Positions 1 through 23,377 of a stretch of 34,681 nucleotides of DNA are shown piece by piece. A program made the translations under genes and the position numbers. The stretch is from Mariprofundaceae bacterium (GTDB taxonomy: Bacteria > Pseudomonadota > Zetaproteobacteria > Mariprofundales > Mariprofundaceae): the NCBI GenBank assembly GCA_030950905.1, contig JAUZQQ010000023.1, positions 1 through 34,681 of the forward strand, written 5' to 3'. Position 1 is the first letter of the stretch. Each line of letters opens with the position of its first letter. A model generated the notes under the pieces. It saw only the letters and a program-made list of their open reading frames with translations. It did no database searches and was not told the DNA's origin.

Positions 1-168
1 CTTGATTTTCGGAGCCAAATAGGGATCCATAATGTCCACTTCAGCGATACGGTACGGGGATTCCAAGCGTAAAATCGCGTTAAGAAAGCTCAATAAAATA
101 TCTGTGCTTTCAGCAGAACCAAATATGCGTTTAAAAGCAAAATCTGTTTTGGGGTTTAAAAATCGCAT
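1..168 (-). CDS. Rpn family recombination-promoting nuclease / PD-(D/E)XK nuclease family transposase, N-terminal fragment (runs off window)
   Basis: Manual minus-strand translation from ATG at 168: MRFLNPKTDFAFKRIFGSAESTDILLSFLNAILRLESPYRIAEVDIMDPYLAPKIK. The 'NPKTDFAFKxIFG...DILxSFLNAIL' opening is characteristic of the Rpn/PDDEXK_2 family. GAGG lies ~6 nt upstream of the ATG. Open to the window edge, hence absent from the ORF track. Confidence 0.85.
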   Translation of the reverse strand, partial: MRFLNPKTDFAFKRIFGSAESTDILLSFLNAILRLESPYRIAEVDIMDPYLAPKIK

Positions 169-273
169 GCGTGACCTCGTCGCTGGGAATGGATGGGGCA
201 ATCATAAACGGCTGGACGGTAGATGTCGCTGAATGACGGTAACGATTTAGTAAACTATCACCGTAACAATTCT

Positions 274-3200
274 CTATTTTGACTGTGGGGGTTTATTTCT
301 TGCTTTTATGGACTGCTTGCCAATAGCATCCAGTTTTCGATTTATCTCGGCCATGTTTCTATGCGTTGTTAAATCTAAATCCAATTTTCCGTTCATGATT
401 TTCACCAAAGGTTCTAACGTGTTTTCTAATACATCCGCGAGTCTGTCGGATGAGATATTGCCTGAGTTTTTAGCGTTTTGATCCTGTGTGTTGCCATCCA
501 TAGTATCAACCAGTTTATTGATAGCTTTGGCGATATAAGTCAATGCCTTATAGTTTTGTTTTCTGCTAACCATCGATTCTTGACTGTTTGTTTTATGCTC
601 TTCCACACGCGTTTTTTCGATACTATCGCGCCAAGCGTTGATGCTGCCAACCAGATCATTGAGTTGTAGAACAATCTTACTGCTGCTATCTGCATTATCG
701 CCGCCTAAGGCTTTGTTACGCATGAAATCAGCTTTAATTTGCTTCCAGCGTTGCTGTTGTGTCTCACTCATGCATGCTCTAATTTCGGCGAGCTTGAGCA
801 AGTTTGCTTCTGTGCCTGTGGTGAGTAACTGAGATTCTCCCTGATAATGATCATCAACCAGGTGAATCAACTCATCGTCGCTCATAATCGCAGAGATCTT
901 TTCTGCCATTTTATTCATGTTTCGGTAGGATCCCTGCAACTTGAATATTGGTTCGGTTCGGTATTTATCATCCTGTGAGCTGGCGGCTATATAGGCCTGA
1001 TTCACCTTCCATACTACGTCCTGAATAGTTTTCATCTTTTGCATGACAGCAACAATCTCTTTAATTTCTGCGCCGCTGTATTGATGCGACAGATCGCTTG
1101 TTGCGAGTGTTACGCCATTGGCCATACCGAGAAATTTATAGACATCATCCATGTCACGTGTCGCAAGTGGTGCGAGTACGGCGTTTGAAGTTAAGGCGTT
1201 TTCAATATAACTGAGCGCGAACACTTCTTCTTTGCCACTTAACACATCGCCCAAGTTGTAAATATCCGCCCGGTTGGCAAGCATATCGGGTACCTGAAAC
1301 GCTTCGCCTGATTCGGTATAAGGGTTGCCAGCCATGACGATGCAAAACTTTTTACCACGCATATCATAGGTTTTGGCACGTTTCTTCCAAACACCTTCAA
1401 TGCGACGTGTACCATCCGATAGCGAGATAAACTTTTGCAGAAATTCACTGTTGGTATGTTGAATATCATCAAGGTACAACATGACATTATTGCCCATTTC
1501 TAATGCCAAATTTAGTTTTTCTAACTCTTGTCGGGACGCGCTATTGCCAGCCTGCTCTGGGTCTACCGAGGTTACGGCATGACCAATCACGGGGCAATTT
1601 ATCTTCATGAAAATAAGCCCGAGTCGGTCAGCCACGTATTCCATTAACGTGGTTTTGCCGTAACCTGGTGGGGAGATCATTAATAATAGCCCCATTAAAT
1701 CAGTGCGTTTTTTATCGCCGACTGTGCCAATTTGTTTGGCTAAATTGTCTCCAATCAGGGGCAAATAGACATCATTGATGAGGCGATTTCTAACAAAAGA
1801 GGACAGTGGTTTTGCTTTAAACGCCTCAAGTCTCAACGCCGTCCTCTTGTTGAGGATAATCTGATGCCGCGTTTGTAGGTAATGCTCGTAAGCAGGTATG
1901 ACCTGTTCATGATGGTCTCTATTGTTATCTAAAAATTGGTCGAGTTGAATCGTTAGTTGACGGTTTTTAATCTTATCGTGCGTACCAAGCAGATCTTCGA
2001 TGTTTACTTGAACATCGCTCTCTCTATCCAAACGATCAATGCGTTGTTCTGCGTTTAATATGCCAATGGCTTCTGCGACAAAACTGGTGTATTGCGTTTT
2101 TTGTTGCGATTGTATAAACGCCTGCAACCAGCCCTCTGCCAGCGCCCAGCGTTTGCCAACCAGCCCCTTCATGTCATCCAATGATTTTTGATAATCACGC
2201 CAAATATTATGCGTTTTTAGGTGGGTGATGAATGCATCACATAGATGACGTGCATATTTGGTGCTTGCAAAGCAGACCCGATCTTGCCCCAGTTCGTCGG
2301 TCAAGTATTCACTGGCATTGATCAGCAGGCGTTTATCTTCGGGTAGTTGGTGCTGTGCCATAAAGCATGCCATATCGCTGGCAATGTCATCAGCAAGGGT
2401 TTTTTTTGCGTGGTTATCAGAAAAGATGTTTGCCATCTGTCCTGCGTTTTTTCCGCGGTGATGCCATAACTTTTGCAACTCACCATTTTGCACATTCGCC
2501 CAATAAACAGCCGCGAGGCCGCGAGCAGAGGGCGAGTACTTGAAGCTGCCAGCAGTTTCGTAGATCGCGACTATTTTTTGCAGGATTAAACTGGCATCAT
2601 GATCGTGGATGCCCTTTTCGTAGCGTTCCTTGTGACGTGGGGCAGCAAAGTCCACCACCAGTTTGAGCATTGTTTTAAAGTTTGTTGTGGCACTGCTTAA
2701 TGTCTGCCAATCAAGATTTTCTTGATTGCTTTCTGCCGCCTTTAGAACGCTGTATGCCAGATATTCGCCACGGTAAATCTGATCGCTTTCAGAAGGCGTT
2801 TCCATCGCCCAGTAGGCACGCATCTTATTGAGTTCTGCATGATCAAGGGGTTCAAAATAGTCAGTGCCCGTCAGACGAACAAACAATGTATCACCCTTGG
2901 CCAAAATCGTTACATCCAACGCTTGCGTATTGACCGAAAACTTATGCCGTGGGCCAAGTTTGATAACTTGACCCCCTTCTTCATACAGATCCTTTTTATC
3001 GCGCAATGCGCGAATGGACTGCTCCCTAATGGCTTTTAATTGGGTATCCAAGTCTTCGGCTTTTACGCTATCATTCAATGCTTTTAATTTACGGATGATC
3101 TCGCCAATTTTTCTGACCAGGTTGTCGGCACTGTAAAAGGTGTTTAATTCATCCTGGGTAGAGAATCGTTTTACCCGGCGTTGCACGCTTTGCAATAGGC

Positions 3201-5547
3201 GTTCAGCCGCATCGTTCAGCGATTGTGCCTTGCGTTGCTGTGCGTCAATTAAATGTTGCTTGTGTTCCTCAAAGGTTTCAAATATTTCTTCACGTTTTTT
3301 AATAATATCAGCAATGAAATCATCATGATCGCCAAATTGACCTTCAAGTTCTTCTAGTTGTACCAGAAGCCTAGAGAACTGTTCGTCACTTTTAGCTGGC
3401 GTGGTCGACATGGCAAGCGCGTTGTGAATACTCTGGTTGAGCAATTTAAGTCGTGCTGCGAATTGCGCCGTGGCTTCGGCACTGCCCATGGTGTTGCGTT
3501 GATGTTCAAGTTCGGCTTTTTGCTGATTGAGGCGGCCATAGAGCTCAGAAACGCTATCGACAATTTTAGTTTGTACGCTTGCATCATCCACTTTTAGGGT
3601 GGCCATCATCTCAGCAATGAGATCCAGTGATCGTGCCAGTTTCTGAAGTGCTTCAACATAGGGTTTTAGTTCAGCATTCGTTTTGCATTTAACACGTTCG
3701 GCAGCAACGGTATTTAGCACCTTGTAGTAGCTGATTAAAGCACCTTCAGAGCCAAGAAACGCCACTGTTTGCTGATTTAAATCAAGCTCAACCGCTGCAA
3801 TACCGTGATCCAACCGCTGTATCTTGTCGGTATCGATATAACGGTACGATTTAATCGTCATCAGGTGACCACGGTGTTGTCTTATGCTGAATAAACCATC
3901 AATAAATTCTTGGGGGTTATGCCAGCTACCCAATTGGATATGGCGAATGATTTCACGTTGTTTCGCACAAGCTTCAAGCAATGCCTTGGTGGATTGCGCA
4001 CGGATACTCTCTACTTTCTCGTATTCATCGATCACCAATTCTGCGGTATGGGTAATTTCACGCAGTAGTTTAGCCATGGATGCCATCTCAGGAGAATCTA
4101 ACCAGTAATAGCTATCGAACACCTTACTACAGGATTGATTGAGTCTGTTGTAGTGAGTAGCTGATACATCCTCTAAGCGCATGCTTTTGCTTATACTGTA
4201 TAATTCAGAAATACCCCGAACCAGTTCGGCGTTACCGATTTTTCCAAAAAAACTCTTTGATGCAGGTCGTGTACTGGCATAATCTTCGCTGCAATAGGGC
4301 GTTTGCCAGATTTGCAATGGATGCACCCGGTTGGGTTCGGCATCCGCATAAAAAATAATCATCCGCCCATCTTCATAAAAGCCATAACCGTGACCTTTTA
4401 ATGGATTTTGCAGTGATTTTTCAATCAAATTGTAGCCATACAGCACAACCACATTATATTCAGGTTGGTAAAAGACATACAAGACATCCTCACCATTGGG
4501 CGAGCGTATGGAGCGTTTGTAGACCAAGTTTTCAAGCTTATCATTGAATGTTTTGGTTTCACCTGTGGTTAAACAATAGCCACCTGGGAAAATAATACCG
4601 TGATCTTCAGGCAATTGTATGCAGGCATGGCCAATCGCATCAATGCGTTGTACCTGCTGATTGTTTCGATTAAAAACCAAGTAGCGGTAGTTGTCTTCTC
4701 TGTAAGGTTTTATTTTTAATAAGATTAGCTGGTTAAGGTTCGCGTAGTAGAATGCAGCATCATCAAGGGACTGATTTTTATCTTCCACTGGCTCAGAATA
4801 GATACCGAGTCCAACATTGGTATTATCTTCTACCTTGATCGTAATATCGCCACGCGATGCATCAATAAACAGGGTATCCAAAATATTGATGTGCGGATTT
4901 CGCCCTTCAACAACATCGTCGCGGTGGCATTCAACCCATTCAAAATCGTAGCTGGCGGGCAACTGGATGTCGCGTTCGCCACGGTTATCAATATACACAA
5001 CCTGTTGACCATCGGCCGAGACTTCCCAGCGAAAGACACGAACATCGCTGAGTTTTTCGCCGATCTGAAATGATGCAAGCAACTGATTGTTCTTGAACAG
5101 CAACTGGGACAATACTGTATCTTTATAATAGGCATAAAGTTCTTGAAAATCGGTTTGAAAGCGGCGATCAGCCAAGAATGCGTCTTGAACACCCACTGAT
5201 CTTAAATCGTATTCACCTTCATTTTCAACCAGCGTGTAGAGCGAAAGAACATCTTCGATACGTGTTTCTCTTCTCAGCCCAATATGAACATTATAACCAA
5301 AAAGCACATAATCACCGACCAAGACCAGATCTTTTGCCTGACAGTTGTTTTCGGTTCTTAATCGCATGCGGCCGAGTACTTTCATCTCGGTGCTACCAAA
5401 CTCTTGCTGACGTTGCTTGTTTATATTGCTGATGAATGTTTCAAGTGAATGCTGTTGTTTGCTTAAACGCTGGCGTATAACCTCATAAGCACCACCCTCG
5501 GCAACCGCTTGTTCAGCTACCGTTGTGTTTTTAGTTTGCTCGCTCAC
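274..5547 (-). CDS. Giant AAA ATPase of the DUF3686 / 'DNA repair ATPase' type (1757 aa, coiled-coil rich)
   Basis: Long ORF. Walker A 'MISPPGYGKTTLMEYVADRLG', Walker B-like 'NVMLYLDDIQH', sensor-like 'FCIVMAGNPYTESGEAFQVPDMLANRAD'. Long charged helical segments. Directly downstream of flotillin and YqiJ-like genes. Confidence 0.85.
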   Translation of the reverse strand: MSEQTKNTTVAEQAVAEGGAYEVIRQRLSKQQHSLETFISNINKQRQQEFGSTEMKVLGRMRLRTENNCQAKDLVLVGDYVLFGYNVHIGLRRETRIEDVLSLYTLVENEGEYDLRSVGVQDAFLADRRFQTDFQELYAYYKDTVLSQLLFKNNQLLASFQIGEKLSDVRVFRWEVSADGQQVVYIDNRGERDIQLPASYDFEWVECHRDDVVEGRNPHINILDTLFIDASRGDITIKVEDNTNVGLGIYSEPVEDKNQSLDDAAFYYANLNQLILLKIKPYREDNYRYLVFNRNNQQVQRIDAIGHACIQLPEDHGIIFPGGYCLTTGETKTFNDKLENLVYKRSIRSPNGEDVLYVFYQPEYNVVVLYGYNLIEKSLQNPLKGHGYGFYEDGRMIIFYADAEPNRVHPLQIWQTPYCSEDYASTRPASKSFFGKIGNAELVRGISELYSISKSMRLEDVSATHYNRLNQSCSKVFDSYYWLDSPEMASMAKLLREITHTAELVIDEYEKVESIRAQSTKALLEACAKQREIIRHIQLGSWHNPQEFIDGLFSIRQHRGHLMTIKSYRYIDTDKIQRLDHGIAAVELDLNQQTVAFLGSEGALISYYKVLNTVAAERVKCKTNAELKPYVEALQKLARSLDLIAEMMATLKVDDASVQTKIVDSVSELYGRLNQQKAELEHQRNTMGSAEATAQFAARLKLLNQSIHNALAMSTTPAKSDEQFSRLLVQLEELEGQFGDHDDFIADIIKKREEIFETFEEHKQHLIDAQQRKAQSLNDAAERLLQSVQRRVKRFSTQDELNTFYSADNLVRKIGEIIRKLKALNDSVKAEDLDTQLKAIREQSIRALRDKKDLYEEGGQVIKLGPRHKFSVNTQALDVTILAKGDTLFVRLTGTDYFEPLDHAELNKMRAYWAMETPSESDQIYRGEYLAYSVLKAAESNQENLDWQTLSSATTNFKTMLKLVVDFAAPRHKERYEKGIHDHDASLILQKIVAIYETAGSFKYSPSARGLAAVYWANVQNGELQKLWHHRGKNAGQMANIFSDNHAKKTLADDIASDMACFMAQHQLPEDKRLLINASEYLTDELGQDRVCFASTKYARHLCDAFITHLKTHNIWRDYQKSLDDMKGLVGKRWALAEGWLQAFIQSQQKTQYTSFVAEAIGILNAEQRIDRLDRESDVQVNIEDLLGTHDKIKNRQLTIQLDQFLDNNRDHHEQVIPAYEHYLQTRHQIILNKRTALRLEAFKAKPLSSFVRNRLINDVYLPLIGDNLAKQIGTVGDKKRTDLMGLLLMISPPGYGKTTLMEYVADRLGLIFMKINCPVIGHAVTSVDPEQAGNSASRQELEKLNLALEMGNNVMLYLDDIQHTNSEFLQKFISLSDGTRRIEGVWKKRAKTYDMRGKKFCIVMAGNPYTESGEAFQVPDMLANRADIYNLGDVLSGKEEVFALSYIENALTSNAVLAPLATRDMDDVYKFLGMANGVTLATSDLSHQYSGAEIKEIVAVMQKMKTIQDVVWKVNQAYIAASSQDDKYRTEPIFKLQGSYRNMNKMAEKISAIMSDDELIHLVDDHYQGESQLLTTGTEANLLKLAEIRACMSETQQQRWKQIKADFMRNKALGGDNADSSSKIVLQLNDLVGSINAWRDSIEKTRVEEHKTNSQESMVSRKQNYKALTYIAKAINKLVDTMDGNTQDQNAKNSGNISSDRLADVLENTLEPLVKIMNGKLDLDLTTHRNMAEINRKLDAIGKQSIKARNKPPQSK

Positions 5548-5574
5548 GTGTATTCCCCGCCGTTATTAAGTCAC

Positions 5575-7569
5575 TTAGGAAGTCTTTGAATTGCCCTTCG
5601 TATGATGATTATCTGATTTAGAAACAGCTTTAGGTATAATGCTGCTACCGCCCAGCAGCTTTTCCATCAGCGCTTGAACGATGGGGCTTTTTTCGATGAA
5701 ACCGTTCACCGCGTTGCCAGCACCCATACCCTTGGCCAGTTTGTCAAAATAATCACCCTGACCACCAACAATATCAATGTTTGCTTTTTGAAGTGCCGCA
5801 GCCAGTACACTTGCCTGATCACCCGCGATATCTTTATTGGCTGCGATGGATGCCATGATTTCTTGCAAATGCGCTTCAAGATTCAAACGAAACTCTTCGA
5901 ATTCCCGGGATTCTTTGTTCATGTTGTTCATGGCCGCAAACTTCTCAATCAAAGCATCGGCTTCAGCCTTGCCTTTTTCACGCAGGACTTCAGCTTTACT
6001 TATGCCAATCTCTTTGTTGGCAACGGCTTCGGCTTTGCCCATTTCCTCATTGCCGCGTGCCTCTGCGGATAATTTTTCTTCCAATACGCGGGCTTCCGCC
6101 AATCCCTCTTTTTCAGTGGCTATGACTTTGGCTTCTTGAATATGGGCTTCGGCGATGCCTTCTTTCTCTTTGGCATCCGCTTTCGCTTCCATGACGCGCG
6201 CTTCGGCTAGCCCAGAAGCGGCGGCGCTTGCCTGTGTACCCTCGGCTAATTTTTTGTCAGCTTCTGCTTTTTTCGATGCTGCTTCTAATTCAGCCTGTGC
6301 CATCACATTGATTTCGCGAGCTTTGTGTACCGCTTTCTTTTCGTCTGCCTCTGCGCGCATCACGGTGTGTACCAACGCTTCCTCAGCCGATGCCTCTGCT
6401 CCGAGAATAAGAATCTGCTTTAAGCGGTCGGCTTCAGAAATTTCATGTACTTCTTTGATTCGCTCTTCTTCTTCCGCGACTTTCTTTTCAACGGAGATCC
6501 TTTCACTGATGGTTTGTGCAATGATTTTCTTTTCTTCTTCCAGTGCCTTGTCTTTTTCGATAACGGCCAATTCAACTTCGCGCTGGCGGTTTACTTGTTC
6601 CATCTTTTGCGCACGAATAACCTTTTCTTTTTCAATCACGATGGCACGTTCGCGGTTTTGTGCTGCCACTTCAACCTGACGCAGTTTCACTTGGGTGCGT
6701 ATTTCGAGTTGTTCATCAGTATCAATTTTTGCTTGCCCAGCTTTAAGCCGCTCTTCTTCTTGAACTTTTTTGGTCTCTGCTGCTTCCCGTGCTTGCACGG
6801 TTTGTATCTCACGTTTTTGCTTCGATTCAGCATCGGTTTGTTGCCGTTCTAAAGCCAGCATGGCTTCGCGTGTTTCTACATTCTTTTTGGTAATGGCAAG
6901 CGATTCATCTTTTTCCAGTCGATTGGTTTGGATGTTTTGAATGGCAGTGATTTCTGTTATTCGGCGAATGCCTTCAGAATCAAGAATATTATTTGGGTCA
7001 AGTTTTGATTTTGGTGTTTGTTCCAGATAATCAATGGCGACATCTTCTAGTATATAACCATTGAGATCATCACCAATCACTTCGATTATTTTTTCTCTGA
7101 ACTTGATTCTGTTTTCAAACAGATCAAGAAAGATCATATTCTTACCGACGGTCTTTAACGCCTCGGAAAATTTGGCACCAAACAATTCGTTCACGGCCTC
7201 TTTATCACATGCCCGATCCACACCAATCGACTTCGCGACGCGAAGCACATCGTCTCTCGTTTCATTGACCCTTAAATAAAATGCCACGGTAATATCTGCG
7301 CGAAGATTATCCTTACAAATCAACCCATCATTTGATTTCCGCTCTATCTCCAGCGTAATAAGTGAAATCTGCATCACTTCCATCTTATGAACGACCGGCA
7401 AGACCAAACCCCCAGTAAAATGCACCTTGGGTTTGGATGACATATCGTTGACAATTAACGCATAACCTTGGGGTACTTTTTTATAAAAGGCACTGAACAA
7501 CATCACAACCCCAACGATTGTGGTTAAGATGATGCCGCCATACATTAATATCGGTAATAGTATTTCCAT
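5575..7569 (-). CDS. Flotillin-like SPFH/Band-7 protein (YqiK-like)
   Basis: N-terminal TM segment, SPFH-like region (VPQGYALIVNDMSSKPKVHFTGGLVLPVVHKMEVMQISLITLEIERKSNDGL), then a long EA-rich coiled coil (AEARVMEAKADAKEKEGIAEA...) and C-terminal tail, typical of flotillins. Confidence 0.9.
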   Translation of the reverse strand: MEILLPILMYGGIILTTIVGVVMLFSAFYKKVPQGYALIVNDMSSKPKVHFTGGLVLPVVHKMEVMQISLITLEIERKSNDGLICKDNLRADITVAFYLRVNETRDDVLRVAKSIGVDRACDKEAVNELFGAKFSEALKTVGKNMIFLDLFENRIKFREKIIEVIGDDLNGYILEDVAIDYLEQTPKSKLDPNNILDSEGIRRITEITAIQNIQTNRLEKDESLAITKKNVETREAMLALERQQTDAESKQKREIQTVQAREAAETKKVQEEERLKAGQAKIDTDEQLEIRTQVKLRQVEVAAQNRERAIVIEKEKVIRAQKMEQVNRQREVELAVIEKDKALEEEKKIIAQTISERISVEKKVAEEEERIKEVHEISEADRLKQILILGAEASAEEALVHTVMRAEADEKKAVHKAREINVMAQAELEAASKKAEADKKLAEGTQASAAASGLAEARVMEAKADAKEKEGIAEAHIQEAKVIATEKEGLAEARVLEEKLSAEARGNEEMGKAEAVANKEIGISKAEVLREKGKAEADALIEKFAAMNNMNKESREFEEFRLNLEAHLQEIMASIAANKDIAGDQASVLAAALQKANIDIVGGQGDYFDKLAKGMGAGNAVNGFIEKSPIVQALMEKLLGGSSIIPKAVSKSDNHHTKGNSKTS

Positions 7570-7590
7570 TGCTAAGCTCCTATCTAATCT

Positions 7591-7610
7591 AACCTGAATT
7601 ATTCAGGCTA
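7591..7610. repeat. Copy 1 of the CCTGAATTATTCAGG palindrome (core 7593-7607), overlapping the TGA stop of the YqiJ-like gene
   Basis: CCTGAAT-T-ATTCAGG. The minus-strand stop codon occupies 7603-7605 inside the palindrome. Confidence 0.85.
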
Positions 7611-8262
7611 ACTTCTGTTTAAATGCTTCTTCGCTGACGACATAAAAAAAATCACTGGTTTTCTCATGTTCGATCAACACCACATTATCGCCGTTGCTAA
7701 ACGTATCACTTCCCGTTGAGCGTACTTTTATAATCAAAGTCGCGCCTTCATTCTGGCACGCTACTTCACCAAATTCAGTGTCCACCCGACTGCTTCTAAC
7801 GCGGCAGGTCGATCCTAAAAGCGAGGTTGCTTTTGGTTCTTGATTGACTTTTCGAAAGAATCCGCGAAGGGGTTTAATCATGCTTGCGGTGAGTAGAATG
7901 GATACCATAAAGCTGGCAATCGCCACACCAGCATTGATTGCGGTTTGTACCAACGAAACAAATTGTGGCAGTGTTGGAATAAACAGGGTGAGAAAATAGC
8001 AGATGATCCATGCATTAAGCAACAACAGGCTAATCACGATGGTGATCGGAACACCCGTTAAACCCAACGTGGCCATGAAGCCAGCAACGCCACCCAACGC
8101 GCTAACGCTGCCATCCATGTCCAGATCGACATCTGCGTCAAAGGCATCAATATCAAGCGTTCCAAAAAAAGCCAACAGCCAGTAGCCGACCACAACAACC
8201 AGAGACGTTGTATAAATAGCCGTTGGAAAACTGCTTATGTTGATTAAAAAATTATCCATCAC
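7603..8262 (-). CDS. YqiJ/NfeD-like membrane protein with C-terminal OB-fold domain
   Basis: Multiple hydrophobic segments followed by a beta-rich C-terminal domain (ATSLLGSTCRVRSSRVDTEFGEVACQNEGATLIIKV...GDNVVLIEH). Immediately upstream of flotillin, matching yqiJ-yqiK synteny. Confidence 0.8.
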   Translation of the reverse strand: MMDNFLINISSFPTAIYTTSLVVVVGYWLLAFFGTLDIDAFDADVDLDMDGSVSALGGVAGFMATLGLTGVPITIVISLLLLNAWIICYFLTLFIPTLPQFVSLVQTAINAGVAIASFMVSILLTASMIKPLRGFFRKVNQEPKATSLLGSTCRVRSSRVDTEFGEVACQNEGATLIIKVRSTGSDTFSNGDNVVLIEHEKTSDFFYVVSEEAFKQKLA

Positions 8263-8301: not shown

Positions 8302-8337
8302 CCAATGTAGCAGCGAATAAATGAGCTGCTACATTGG
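8302..8337. repeat. 13-bp perfect inverted repeat / hairpin between the SPOR gene and the YqiJ-like gene
   Basis: CCAATGTAGCAGC (8302-8314) - GAATAAATGA - GCTGCTACATTGG (8325-8337). No strong T-tract on the minus strand. Confidence 0.8.
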
Positions 8338-18206: not shown

Positions 18207-19250
<1,044 letters not shown>

Positions 19251-19277
19251 GCGCACGAATAAGCGATTAGGTGAATA

Positions 19278-20060
19278 ATGCGCCATCGTTTATTGCTTCG
19301 TCGCGGGGTGTTTGTCGCCATTGTTCTTGTCGCGCTGTTTTCCTTGGATGCCATGAATATCGGTCAGCGTTTTTTGTTGGCATCCGGCCCTGTTTTTTCT
19401 TGGGTGCAACGCCCTGTGCTGTGGGTTGATGAATTAGCCCTATGGCTACAAGAGCGCGCAGCATTGCAAGAAAAAGTAATAGCCATGGAAATAAGACTCG
19501 GAAAACAAACCGCATTGTTTCAACAAACCCAAAGTCTGCATGAAGAAAATATTCGTTTGCGGCGTTTGCTAAACGTGCAAGATATAGAAGGTTATGAATG
19601 GCATGGTGCATCCGTGCTTGGCCGAAGCCCCGATCAAAAAAGCCAACGTATCATCATTCAAAGCCTTCAAGCGGTGGTTGATAATGTGGTGATTTCCAGT
19701 GAAGGTTTGGTTGGTCTGATTGATGCAAGGCAAGGTGAATATGCGGTTGTGCGTACCGTGTTGGATGCATCCATTGCCGTGCCTGTGACCATGCAAGGCA
19801 GCGATCTTGCCGCATTGGCGCGGGGCGATGGCAAACAACTGCTGTTGGACTTTATCCCTGCTGTTTTCACTTTAAGCGTTGGTGATATTTTATTCACCTC
19901 TGGCGCAGGTGGCTTGTACCCACCGGGCATTCCTGTTGCCCGTGTCGTTCGCACGAAAGCCATTCAGGGAAGTCCCTTTGCCCATGTTGAAGCTGTGCCT
20001 GTGGCACACTGGCAACGCGACCATTGGTTGGCTGTGGCAGCAACAAAAAACAGTGATTAA
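19278..20060 (+). CDS. mreC: Rod shape-determining protein MreC
   Basis: N-terminal TM, coiled coil, MreC beta domain ('GLVGLIDARQGEYAVVRTVLDASIAVPVTMQ...DILFTSGAGGLYPPGIPVARV'). Between mreB and mreD. Confidence 0.95.
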   Translation: MRHRLLLRRGVFVAIVLVALFSLDAMNIGQRFLLASGPVFSWVQRPVLWVDELALWLQERAALQEKVIAMEIRLGKQTALFQQTQSLHEENIRLRRLLNVQDIEGYEWHGASVLGRSPDQKSQRIIIQSLQAVVDNVVISSEGLVGLIDARQGEYAVVRTVLDASIAVPVTMQGSDLAALARGDGKQLLLDFIPAVFTLSVGDILFTSGAGGLYPPGIPVARVVRTKAIQGSPFAHVEAVPVAHWQRDHWLAVAATKNSD

Positions 20061-20490
20061 TTTTCGCTTTTTAAACGCTGTTGTTTGGCTGTTTTGTTTT
20101 ATCTTACTGGGGCTTTGGTTGAACTGGTTGGTTCCTGTTAAATTTTACCAACCTGATTGGGTTTTCGCCCTGCTGCTGGGTGCTTTATTGGCGCAATGGC
20201 GTTATGCATGGTGGGTGTTTTTTGTCGCTTGCGTGCATGACTTTATCTTTTATTGGACGCTTTGGCCCGGTATTCTACTGTGGCTTTCCCTGCCTTTGTT
20301 GTTGATTTGGATGGACGATGTGGCAGGTGCGGGTCTGCCACAACGGCTATTGTTGTTGGTGCTGGCTTGCAGCTTATTGCTGTGGCAAGGCTGGTCACTG
20401 GAATCCACCCTATTAACCTTATTGCTTGCCGTTTGTTGTTGGTACCAATGGGTGCGTGTGAATGAAACGTCTTGGTTGTCTGTGCGATGA
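20053..20490 (+). CDS. mreD: Rod shape-determining protein MreD (GTG start overlapping the mreC stop)
   Basis: In-frame GTG at 20053 (GTGATTAA overlaps the mreC TAA). Polytopic 'VINFRFLNAVVWLFCFILLGLWLNWLV...'. The ORF-track start at 19879 would extend far into mreC. Confidence 0.82.
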   Translation: MINFRFLNAVVWLFCFILLGLWLNWLVPVKFYQPDWVFALLLGALLAQWRYAWWVFFVACVHDFIFYWTLWPGILLWLSLPLLLIWMDDVAGAGLPQRLLLLVLACSLLLWQGWSLESTLLTLLLAVCCWYQWVRVNETSWLSVR

Positions 20491-22271
20491 GTGTTTTTGA
20501 TACCCGTTCACGTTTTACATTTCGCATGCTTGTATTTCACGGTATCGCTGCATTGTTGTTGCTATTGTTGCTTGGCCGCATGGTAGATTTGCAATGGATG
20601 CAATATGACGGTCTTAACCTTCAGGCAGAAAACAACCGTATTAATGTGCTTCCTATCCTGCCTGTTCGTGGTCAAATAATGGATCGCAATGGCCGTGGTT
20701 TGGCAGTTAATCGTATTTCTTATCGCCTGATCATGATTCCTGAACGTATCGACGATATGGATGCTGTATTGGCGATGCTTTATGCCAATTTACCATGGTC
20801 ATCGAGTCATCGAAAACGAATTTTGCGGCGCATATCTCATGCCCGAAAGGATCGCCCTGTTTTGCTGCAAGACCAGCTACAATGGTACCAAATAGCGTGG
20901 TTATTGCCCCGTTTGCAACATTACCCCGGCTTAAATGTAGAAGCGGGTACGCACCGTGAATATCCGTATGCTGCGCTAACATCACATGTTATTGGGTATT
21001 TATCACGGGTGAGAAAATCGGATTTAAAAGAAGGGTTTTTTCCAGGTGAATATATAGGTCGAAGTGGGCTAGAACTTGCCTTTGAGGCGTATTTACATGG
21101 CTCACCGGGAAGCCAACAAGAAGAAGTTGATGCCCGTGGCCGAAGGGTGGCTGTGTTGGCTGAGACCCCCCCTGTGATGGGAAAGAGTATCCGTTTATCG
21201 TTGGATGTTCGCATTCAGCAAGCCGCAGCGGATGCGCTAGCAGGACGTACGGGCGCGGTGGTCGTGATGGATGTACACAGTGGCGAAGTACTGACCATGC
21301 TAAGTACGCCGGGTTATGATACCAACGCATTTATCCAAGGTTTAAAACAACAACAGTGGTCGGCATGGCTGAACAATGATCAAATACCCTTGCTTAACCG
21401 CGCGCTTCAGGCAACGTACCCACCCGGTTCAACATGGAAGATGGTTACCGCAATGGCAGGCTTACGCAAGGAAGTGAAAGCGGTCAATCAACGTGTTCAG
21501 TGCTTGGGGTATGTGCAATTGCATGATCGACGCTTGCGATGTTGGAAACGATCAGGCCATGGTTATGTTAATTTGCATGATGCTTTGATGCACTCCTGTG
21601 ATGTGTTTTTTTATAATTTGGGTGATCAATTGGGTATGCGTCCGATTATTGAAGAAGCGCACCGCTGGGGGTTTGGTGAATACACAGGCATCACATTATC
21701 GCCAGAAGCACGTGGGAATTTGCCGGCTGCTGGTGGGCATATCCGCCATGGCCATCGACGGGCATGGTTCCCGGGTGAAGTCATGATTACCGCGATTGGT
21801 CAAGGCATGGTGACCGTTACGCCACTACAAATGGCACGTTTTGCAGCGGCACTCGCCAATGGTGGCGATGTTTTAAAGCCACAGATGTTGGCAGGGGTTG
21901 CGCCCAAAATCGAACGCCATGTGGACTTGCCCGCCCATGCTTTAACGCGTGTTCAAGAAGCAATGGCCGATGTTGCCAATACCCCCGGTGGTACGGCCTA
22001 CCGTTACCTTCATGATGCCGCATGGCACATTGCAGGCAAAACAGGCACGGCACAAGTGGTAGGGATGTCGCAAAAACAAAAAAAATATTCAAGCAAAGGG
22101 GTATTGAAAAAGCATCAGGATCACGCTTGGTTTATAGGCTATGCACCGTATGAAAAACCACGTATTTCTTTTGCTATTTTTGTTGAACACGGTGGCCATG
22201 GCAGCAGCGGCGCATCACCGATTGCCAAAGCCATTGTCAATGCCATGGCGAGCAGTGACATGTCAAAATGA
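20487..22271 (+). CDS. mrdA: Penicillin-binding protein 2 (peptidoglycan transpeptidase)
   Basis: 'LPVRGQIMDRNGRGLAVNR', active site 'YPPGSTWKMV', 'SCDVFFYNLG', 'AGKTGTAQ'. ATGA overlap with the mreD stop supports the start at 20487. Confidence 0.96.
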   Translation: MSVFDTRSRFTFRMLVFHGIAALLLLLLLGRMVDLQWMQYDGLNLQAENNRINVLPILPVRGQIMDRNGRGLAVNRISYRLIMIPERIDDMDAVLAMLYANLPWSSSHRKRILRRISHARKDRPVLLQDQLQWYQIAWLLPRLQHYPGLNVEAGTHREYPYAALTSHVIGYLSRVRKSDLKEGFFPGEYIGRSGLELAFEAYLHGSPGSQQEEVDARGRRVAVLAETPPVMGKSIRLSLDVRIQQAAADALAGRTGAVVVMDVHSGEVLTMLSTPGYDTNAFIQGLKQQQWSAWLNNDQIPLLNRALQATYPPGSTWKMVTAMAGLRKEVKAVNQRVQCLGYVQLHDRRLRCWKRSGHGYVNLHDALMHSCDVFFYNLGDQLGMRPIIEEAHRWGFGEYTGITLSPEARGNLPAAGGHIRHGHRRAWFPGEVMITAIGQGMVTVTPLQMARFAAALANGGDVLKPQMLAGVAPKIERHVDLPAHALTRVQEAMADVANTPGGTAYRYLHDAAWHIAGKTGTAQVVGMSQKQKKYSSKGVLKKHQDHAWFIGYAPYEKPRISFAIFVEHGGHGSSGASPIAKAIVNAMASSDMSK

Positions 22272-23377
22272 TGTTTAAGCCATGGTTGTTGATCGATCGT
22301 TGGTTACTGGTTATCTTGCTGATGTTGGCAGCTATTGGTCTGTTGACGCTGTATTCGGCAGTGCATCATGGCGAAATACATATTTGGTACCGCCAATTAT
22401 CCTATTGGTTGGTGGGACTCACAGCTTTTTTAATCCTTGCGTTGATTCCACTGCGTTTGCTTGGTTTGTTGGCTTGGCCCGTGTTTGCTTTTGCTTTGTT
22501 GTGCCTTGCACTGGTACCTTTGATGGGTGATGTGCAAATGGGCGCAAGACGCTGGATCACTATTGGTCCTGTTCACTTGCAACCATCAGAAATCATGAAG
22601 TGGGCCTTGATGTTGGTGTTGGCCCATTGGTTTGCCAACCGTGAACCTGATGGCTGGTTGGCAATTATTGTCGCTGTATGTCTCACCGCCGTACCCGCTG
22701 CGCTTATTGTTGTTCAGCCTGATTTGGGAACGAGCTTGGTATTGCTGTTGGCAGCGACGGCCATGTTGGTGGCAGCAGGGTTCCCGTGGCGTTATTTGTT
22801 TTCTATTGTGGCGATGATGCCTTTTGCTGGGTGGTATGTATGGCTGCACATGCATCAGTATCAAAAGCAACGGGTATTAACTTTTCTTGACCCGCAGACT
22901 GACCCGCTTGGTGCGGGCTATCACGTTATTCAATCGATGATTTCTATTGGTTCTGGTGGCTTGTGGGGCAAAGGTTATCTGACGGGAACCCAATCACGCT
23001 TGAATTTTTTACCTGAGCAACATACAGACTTTATTTTTTCTGTGTTGGCTGAGGAGGCTGGTTTGATTGGCGTTTTTGTGTTGTTGCTGTTGTTTGCATT
23101 GTTGGTGCATCGCATGTTGCATATTGCCAGCATTGCGCATACCCGCTTTGCTGCATTGGTGACGGTGGGTGTTTGCAGTATTTTTATGATCTATATTTTT
23201 GTAAATATTGCCATGGTGTCGGGTGTTTTGCCCGTGGTCGGCGTGCCATTGCCTTTTGTTAGTTATGGCGGCTCTGCCTTGGTCAGTATGTTGGCAGCTT
23301 TGGGCATGGTTGCAAGGGTAAGTATTGAGGCGCATGCTGTGCTACCTTGGCAGCGTGGGGGAAGCCCTCTGGCTTGA
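22268..23377 (+). CDS. rodA: Rod shape-determining protein RodA (SEDS glycosyltransferase)
   Basis: 'GARRWITIGPVHLQPSEIMKWALML...VVQPDLGTSLVLL...QSRLNFLPEQHTDFIFSVLAEEAG...VGVPLPFVSYGGSALVSML'. ATGA overlap with mrdA. Confidence 0.97.
   Translation: MMFKPWLLIDRWLLVILLMLAAIGLLTLYSAVHHGEIHIWYRQLSYWLVGLTAFLILALIPLRLLGLLAWPVFAFALLCLALVPLMGDVQMGARRWITIGPVHLQPSEIMKWALMLVLAHWFANREPDGWLAIIVAVCLTAVPAALIVVQPDLGTSLVLLLAATAMLVAAGFPWRYLFSIVAMMPFAGWYVWLHMHQYQKQRVLTFLDPQTDPLGAGYHVIQSMISIGSGGLWGKGYLTGTQSRLNFLPEQHTDFIFSVLAEEAGLIGVFVLLLLFALLVHRMLHIASIAHTRFAALVTVGVCSIFMIYIFVNIAMVSGVLPVVGVPLPFVSYGGSALVSMLAALGMVARVSIEAHAVLPWQRGGSPLA

Follow-up and report, generated by a model that had tools for sequence, protein, structure and literature searches.

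What do three tightly spaced genes at the edge of a contig from a Mariprofundaceae bacterium do, and does the giant AAA+ ATPase encoded by one of them work as part of a self-contained system? The genes lie within a stretch of 34,681 nucleotides (contig JAUZQQ010000023.1, positions 1 to 34,681), referred to here in its entirety as the window. The original prediction, made from the sequence alone, had described three codirectional minus-strand genes separated by gaps of 27–33 bp, and the open reading frames agree with it exactly: 33 bp separate the YqiJ-like gene from the flotillin gene, and 27 bp separate the latter from the ATPase gene.

7603..8262, minus strand: gene 1, YqiJ/BacC-like small membrane protein (open reading frame, 219 amino acids; about three transmembrane segments and a soluble C-terminal part)
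5575..7569, minus strand: gene 2, flotillin/YqiK/BacD-like SPFH protein (open reading frame, 664 amino acids; long Glu/Ala-rich coiled coil)
274..5547, minus strand: gene 3, DUF3686 giant AAA+ ATPase, BacE-like (open reading frame, 1757 amino acids; often annotated 'DNA repair ATPase')

Our favoured explanation, to which we assign a probability of roughly 70%, is that this locus is the YqiJ-flotillin-AAA+ arm (the equivalent of bacCDE) of a YjfI-PspA membrane-stress system, the other arm of which is encoded elsewhere in the same genome. PspA is an ESCRT-III-like membrane remodeller. That the three genes belong to a YjfI-PspA-flotillin-AAA+ system of some kind is very probable; what the motor itself acts upon is considered separately below.

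The three genes form one conserved unit

A scan of a genome collection, in which gene neighbours were located by tblastn, returned 80 homologous loci from gammaproteobacteria. Where at least 4.3 kb of upstream sequence was available, a flotillin gene and a YqiJ-like gene were found just upstream of the ATPase gene and on the same strand in 68 of 70 cases. The DUF3686 ATPase is also carried by 12 plasmid or megaplasmid records, several of which are chromosome-sized; in the ten that were examined, spanning Pseudomonadota, Actinomycetota, Deinococcota and Bacteroidota, the flotillin gene adjoins the ATPase gene every time and a YqiJ-like gene is present in nine. The YqiJ-like protein, the flotillin and the ATPase are one conserved unit. 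The claim that they make up a single system stood or fell with a conserved flotillin/YqiJ neighbourhood, and this is what the survey found, since all but two of the 70 loci keep the order.

The two exceptions (L011 and L017) are metagenome-assembled genomes of Methyloprofundus, in which the ATPase gene has neither flotillin nor YqiJ upstream. They can be cited for the reading that an SPFH-NfeD-type pair merely happens to precede an unrelated ATPase gene, as can the existence of E. coli yqiJK without such an ATPase and the absence of DUF3686 from control genomes. That reading is refuted for practical purposes by the retention of gene order across so many loci and four phyla, and by published reverse transcription PCR demonstrating cotranscription of bacD and bacE (PMC10948618).

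The unit is linked to YjfI and PspA even when they are encoded apart

Among the 68 loci with at least 6.5 kb of upstream sequence, pspA lies upstream of yqiJ in 48 and is accompanied by yjfI (DUF2170) in 45, such that the operon opens with yjfI(DUF2170)-pspA in about two thirds of the gammaproteobacterial loci. In pQBR103 and Hymenobacter, likewise, the genes for YjfI/Tir, PspA, YqiJ, the SPFH protein and the ATPase are kept in one row. The window contains neither yjfI nor pspA, and the same genome carries the pair on another contig (C8:9103-10238, with pspA at L084:9103-9798). The locus is thus of the abbreviated form, the full form having the pair within the same operon. The PspA concerned is of the appropriate clade: in a tree it falls with PspAs that are operon-linked in Aliikangiella and Thiodiazotropha, far from E. 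coli PspA (moderate support, 93/94). No gene for PspB, PspC or PspF was found around it, and the arrangement is therefore not the canonical pspF-pspABC of E. coli. Two further genes adjoin yjfI-pspA. One is DUF4178-like; the other is small (cluster 24) and belongs to a family which, in several of the intact operons found in the nearest relatives, separates pspA from yqiJ.

This association also holds across genomes. DUF3686 was present in 10 of 398 Pseudomonadota genomes (including the one studied here), all ten of which encode both yjfI and a YqiJ-like gene, and three of which have yjfI away from the ATPase gene. The frequency of yjfI is 10/10 in these genomes vs 45/388 in the others (Fisher ~1e-9, a value which ignores shared ancestry). 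For the 22 loci that lack an adjacent yjfI, 19 genomes encode it elsewhere and always beside pspA, while some PspA is present in all 22. The original prediction of a compact three-gene system does not hold in so far as it implied self-containment, as YjfI and PspA are its regular partners, encoded alongside in most relatives and on a different contig here.

Several observations weigh against this picture. Three of the 22 genomes without an adjacent yjfI have none at all, and the loci of Deinococcus and Streptomyces consist of a flotillin-ATPase core with no yjfI-pspA nearby; PspA is perhaps not a universal client for these reasons. Many genomes that encode yjfI-pspA lack the ATPase (the 45/388 above, and also the same-genus genome G003, which is 93% complete). 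A scan upstream of yjfI at 38 loci revealed no enrichment of the sigma-54 motif relative to random pieces, but the scan was crude and some gene starts may be miscalled, so this does not contradict the promoter published for the bac operon (see below). Finally, no direct physical interaction between the ATPase and its partners was found in the literature examined.

The Deinococcus and Streptomyces loci also make a serious rival of membrane-protein quality control. Here a flotillin-YqiJ cage would confine unfolded membrane proteins, which would be extracted or refolded by the AAA+ protein, an unfoldase, in the manner of FtsH-HflKC; PspA, induced by the same stress, would only help in parallel. 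FloA-NfeD of S. aureus is reported to stabilise unfolded proteins (PMC11222466), a rhomboid protease gene is present at 35 of 81 loci, and the AAA+ core has AAA_5 as its best Pfam AAA match and the MoxR-type proteins NorQ/CbbQ among its fold matches. This explanation does not, however, predict the strong link to yjfI-pspA when the genes are unlinked, and the core lacks a protease domain or a ClpP-type partner. We regard it as unlikely, albeit far from negligible.

Two side observations concern the PspA proteins and their operons. A C-terminal tail (roughly K-L-x-x-A-G-I ... V-L-x-R-L-K) is common to the YjfI-type PspAs and also occurs in E. coli YjfJ (L122). A strict version of the pattern matches 13 of the 19 unlinked yjfI-adjacent PspAs (L144-L162), and by eye all of them except one misread open reading frame, vs 0/17 canonical PspAs (L124-L140). 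The tail could be a docking site for YjfI. In pQBR103 (L163, 84437-97641), the genes run yjfI-pspA-rhomboid-DUF2491-DUF350-DUF1190-glutathionylspermidine synthase-yqiJ-like-SPFH-ATPase in one row, and what looks like a single operon thus combines the flotillin-ATPase type with the yjfIJKLMC type of E. coli.

Comparison with described systems

An operon class combining CesT/Tir-PspA with a band-7/flotillin protein, an AAA+ ATPase containing a coiled coil and a beta-propeller, and a YqiJ/YuaF protein with three transmembrane segments was described in mSystems in 2024 (PMC11237479). The locus in the window belongs with this class: the flotillin gene adjoins the YqiJ-like and AAA+ genes on the same strand, the AAA+ protein has an N-terminal propeller and a coiled coil, and the gene set is the same once YjfI and PspA are included, although here it is divided between two contigs. 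The same study noted abbreviated operons and proposed that these work with PspA encoded elsewhere (PMC11237479), a proposal which is supported by our finding of yjfI-pspA elsewhere in 19 of the 22 unlinked cases.

A second close counterpart is bacABCDEF of P. aeruginosa (PA3732-PA3728 and onward), in which six genes are cotranscribed and a sigma-54 promoter is predicted (PMC2587700, PMC10948618). BacA is a DUF2170 protein, and hence YjfI, with a crystal structure resembling chaperones of the type III secretion system, while BacB is a PspA which is raised by hyperosmotic shock (PMC10948618, PMC2587700). Mutants in bacA or bacB are impaired in biofilm formation, rhamnolipids and swarming (PMC10948618, PMC2587700). 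BacC is a short NfeD-type protein, BacD is the SPFH protein PaFlo3 (PMC13086221) and PA3728 carries the label ATPase (PMC8190622); from gene order and this label, as opposed to sequence, we infer that BacE is the DUF3686 protein. The difference is again one of arrangement, as the bac genes form one operon whereas the set here lies in two places. With the operon class already reported (PMC11237479) and bac phenotypes published for P. aeruginosa (PMC2587700, PMC10948618), the initial description of a poorly described system has to be withdrawn. The gene set is known and partly studied in Pseudomonas, and the system is ordinary in kind and poorly understood in function; what is new here are the counts linking unlinked yjfI-pspA to the ATPase and a candidate PspA-associated motor. 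They place the bac genes of P. aeruginosa within a system that occurs in no fewer than four phyla.

More distant likenesses are informative about parts of the system. E. coli yqiJ-yqiK has a YqiK-type flotillin and, preceding it, a membrane protein about as small as the one here, but no DUF3686 ATPase, and its YqiJ is barely related in sequence to the 219-residue protein. In B. subtilis, PspA depends on an SPFH protein and two membrane partners for its recruitment to the membrane (PMC8581546). The resemblance of this pspA-ydjGHI system lies in the recruitment of PspA by an SPFH protein with membrane partners; it differs in having no AAA+ motor, and no YqiK-type flotillin in an operon with YqiJ. 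ESCRT-III/Vps4 similarly pairs a polymer of the ESCRT-III family (to which PspA belongs) with an AAA+ ATPase, although the AAA core here resembles RuvB/MoxR and its action on PspA is putative.

Domain architecture of the DUF3686 ATPase

The 1757-residue protein is encoded by a single-copy gene in its genome and matches PF12458 (DUF3686) at 1.6e-190, with 633.8 bits against a Pfam gathering cut-off of 25, which bears out its initial assignment to the DUF3686 family of AAA ATPases. Further matches are to PF25472 (DUF7902) at 6e-21 and to AAA_5/AAA at about 5e-6. AlphaFold2 models built on 60-sequence alignments, together with conservation across these homologues, delimit the following features.

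4303..5382, minus strand: beta-propeller, residues ~56-415 (AlphaFold2, pLDDT about 88)
2986..4287, minus strand: long helical/coiled-coil region, residues ~421-854 (AlphaFold2), containing DUF7902 (603-685, PF25472)
2050..2967, minus strand: small beta domain and all-helical region, unnamed, residues ~861-1166 (AlphaFold2, pLDDT mostly >90)
733..1833, minus strand: AAA+ core, residues ~1239-1605, the most conserved stretch of the protein
1651..1674, minus strand: Walker A, SPPGYGKT, residues 1292-1299 (invariant in 60 homologues)
1456..1479, minus strand: Walker B region, LYLDDIQH, residues 1357-1364 (fully or almost fully conserved in 60 aligned homologues)

The propeller is matched in the PDB by WD40-, clathrin- and prolyl-oligopeptidase-type propellers with probability 1.00 and with low TM-scores, the latter because the whole 880-residue model was compared. 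Judging from its motifs, the AAA+ core looks intact. The Walker motifs PPGYGKT and LYLDDIQH of the original prediction are both conserved across the alignment, and the GYGKT segment, D1360, the sensor-1 residue N1408 and the candidate Arg finger R1426 are invariant. As a separate observation, the Walker B motif has DD instead of the usual DE in 60/60 homologues (residues 1360-1361, window 1465-1470), and this invariant Glu-to-Asp replacement might make ATP hydrolysis slow.

The closest solved folds to the AAA+ core are RuvB (E 3e-4) and then MoxR-type NorQ/CbbQ, all of them weak, and an alignment search of the PDB with the AAA part likewise gave a weak RuvB match; sequence searches of the PDB with single proteins matched nothing. 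This similarity, together with the database label, is what speaks for an ATPase acting in DNA repair or at membrane-DNA contacts. The RuvB fold match is confined to the generic AAA+ core, however, and at the level of the family the protein reaches 17.4 bits against a RuvB cut-off of 282; no DNA-binding domain was found, and in four phyla the ATPase shares its operon with membrane proteins. A role of this kind is very improbable, and the 'DNA repair' label has at most the weak RuvB-like similarity of the core behind it. The association with YjfI and PspA provides a function-based ground for dropping this misleading name.

The flotillin and the YqiJ-like protein

The 664-residue protein has the features of a YqiK-type SPFH protein, namely a Band_7 domain, an N-terminal transmembrane segment, a long coiled coil and homology to YqiK. 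Its whole length gave no match in Pfam, and the domain was identified by scanning the N-terminal 210 residues alone:

7033..7479, minus strand: SPFH (Band_7) domain, flotillin residues 31-179 (PF01145, 2.3e-10)

Band_7 was found in all nine orthologues tested, and alignment of the protein to E. coli YqiK extends over 471 residues with 27% identity (1e-42). An alignment search of the PDB with the SPFH part gave a weak match to flotillin-1. The gene had been described from the outset as a flotillin with an SPFH region and a long, EA-rich coiled coil, and so it is.

The 219-residue protein is more elusive. Hydropathy indicates about three hydrophobic segments, and the protein has no significant match in Pfam or NCBIfam. 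Three of eight orthologues touch PF21001 (YqiJ_N), the best at 0.0023, none of the eight reaches the YqiJ_OB model, and hhalign against E. coli YqiJ returns a probability of 9%. Kinship to E. coli YqiJ is marginal at the level of sequence, and the YqiJ-like identity is a weak one, drawn from topology, gene position and the DUF1449 label of the syntenic gene in Hymenobacter. Of the small polytopic OB-fold (oligonucleotide/oligosaccharide-binding fold) protein that had been proposed, the hydrophobic segments stand and the OB fold is putative; the proposed likeness to E. coli yqiJ-yqiK is similarly secure in its flotillin half and marginal in its YqiJ half. Relatives of the protein begin M(D/E)..., and its start is therefore probably the ATG at 8259 as opposed to the GTG at 8262.

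A candidate motor for PspA

In the mechanism that we favour for the YjfI-PspA system, the flotillin and the YqiJ-like protein would form a membrane-attached cage or microdomain, YjfI (with its CesT/Tir-chaperone fold) would hold or deliver PspA, and PspA would coat and repair the stressed membrane. The ATPase, docked through its propeller and coiled coil, would spend ATP in disassembling or reloading PspA polymers or other clients at the flotillin-YqiJ platform, such that the damaged membrane is sealed and the machinery recycled. The platform, YjfI and PspA steps draw upon relatives and published work, while the substrate of the motor is inferred. That the motor acts on PspA or on the flotillin assembly is a tentative proposal, if one with appreciable odds.

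A narrower version casts DUF3686 as an AAA+ protein dedicated to remodelling a bacterial ESCRT-III, namely YjfI-type PspA, on the flotillin-YqiJ platform, using a RuvB/MoxR-like motor and not one of the Vps4 type, with YjfI as the adaptor or chaperone for the PspA C-terminal tail. We consider this doubtful, and somewhat less probable than the quality-control explanation. No ATPase that disassembles PspA is known in most bacteria, and this has been called an open question (PMC11237479). That the DUF3686 ATPase and its flotillin are almost always accompanied by YjfI-PspA, even where the two halves are encoded far apart, points to a concrete candidate for such a PspA motor.

Patchy distribution and genomic setting

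The ATPase is absent from all other members of the Mariprofundaceae searched, and the operon is thus patchy within the family. All three same-genus genomes (incomplete assemblies) encode yjfI, with pspA and the two neighbour genes beside it where the contig reaches, and in none was the ATPase or YqiJ found. Read most simply, the two loci of the genome under study make up a single system. This arrangement could have come about by operon splitting or by separate acquisition, and acquisition of the ATPase arm on its own is at least as likely as a split because the same-genus genomes have yjfI-pspA without the ATPase and YqiJ. The gene order in the family is argS, a SPOR gene and a kinase-like gene, and in the window the operon stands in the place of the kinase-like gene; more distant family members were used for this comparison, as the contig of same-genus G003 breaks at the argS end. 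The patchiness, this position and the plasmid copies together point to horizontal gain or repeated loss.

These features, and the adjoining Rpn-type gene, might also suggest an anti-phage or other defence module on mobile DNA, but horizontal gain or repeated loss is not evidence for such a role. PADLOC gave chance-level matches only (best 4e-4, to a partial model), no copy was found in phages, the genes that recur around the operon relate to stress and membranes and not to defence, and several of the 12 'plasmids' are chromosome-sized. Defence is accordingly a most improbable function. Of the roles first put forward for the locus, membrane stress is retained, while membrane-DNA contact and defence are not.

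In the relative G004 (L114:12000-13066), yqiJ is truncated after ~115 residues. Repeat-like sequence with an inverted CTGTCCGA...TCGGACAG motif comes next, before the contig ends; decay, insertion and an assembly break are indistinguishable as causes.

The neighbour of the ATPase gene had been recognised as Rpn-type, and Pfam concurs:

1..171, minus strand: start of an Rpn-type PD-(D/E)XK transposase/nuclease gene (PF12784, 8e-13), downstream of the ATPase gene and cut by the contig end

This gene is outside the system. At other loci (L002-L081), recurrent accessory genes on either side of the ATPase gene encode, in addition to the small rhomboid protease, a phospholipase-D-like protein (29 loci), a TerB/DUF533-like protein of 80 residues (23 loci) and a zinc-finger protein (12 loci), and in Aliikangiella and Psychromonas a PHA_gran_rgn gene lies downstream. 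At the other end of the operon, between the SPOR gene and yqiJ, window positions 8304-8335 hold a perfect 11-bp inverted repeat (AATGTAGCAGC, 10-bp loop), which could be a terminator or the border of an inserted piece. An Rfam scan matched no RNA families. Further along the window, beyond yqeY-dnaG-rpoD, is a housekeeping elongasome cluster, mreB-mreC-(mreD region)-PBP2-rodA (18207-23377).

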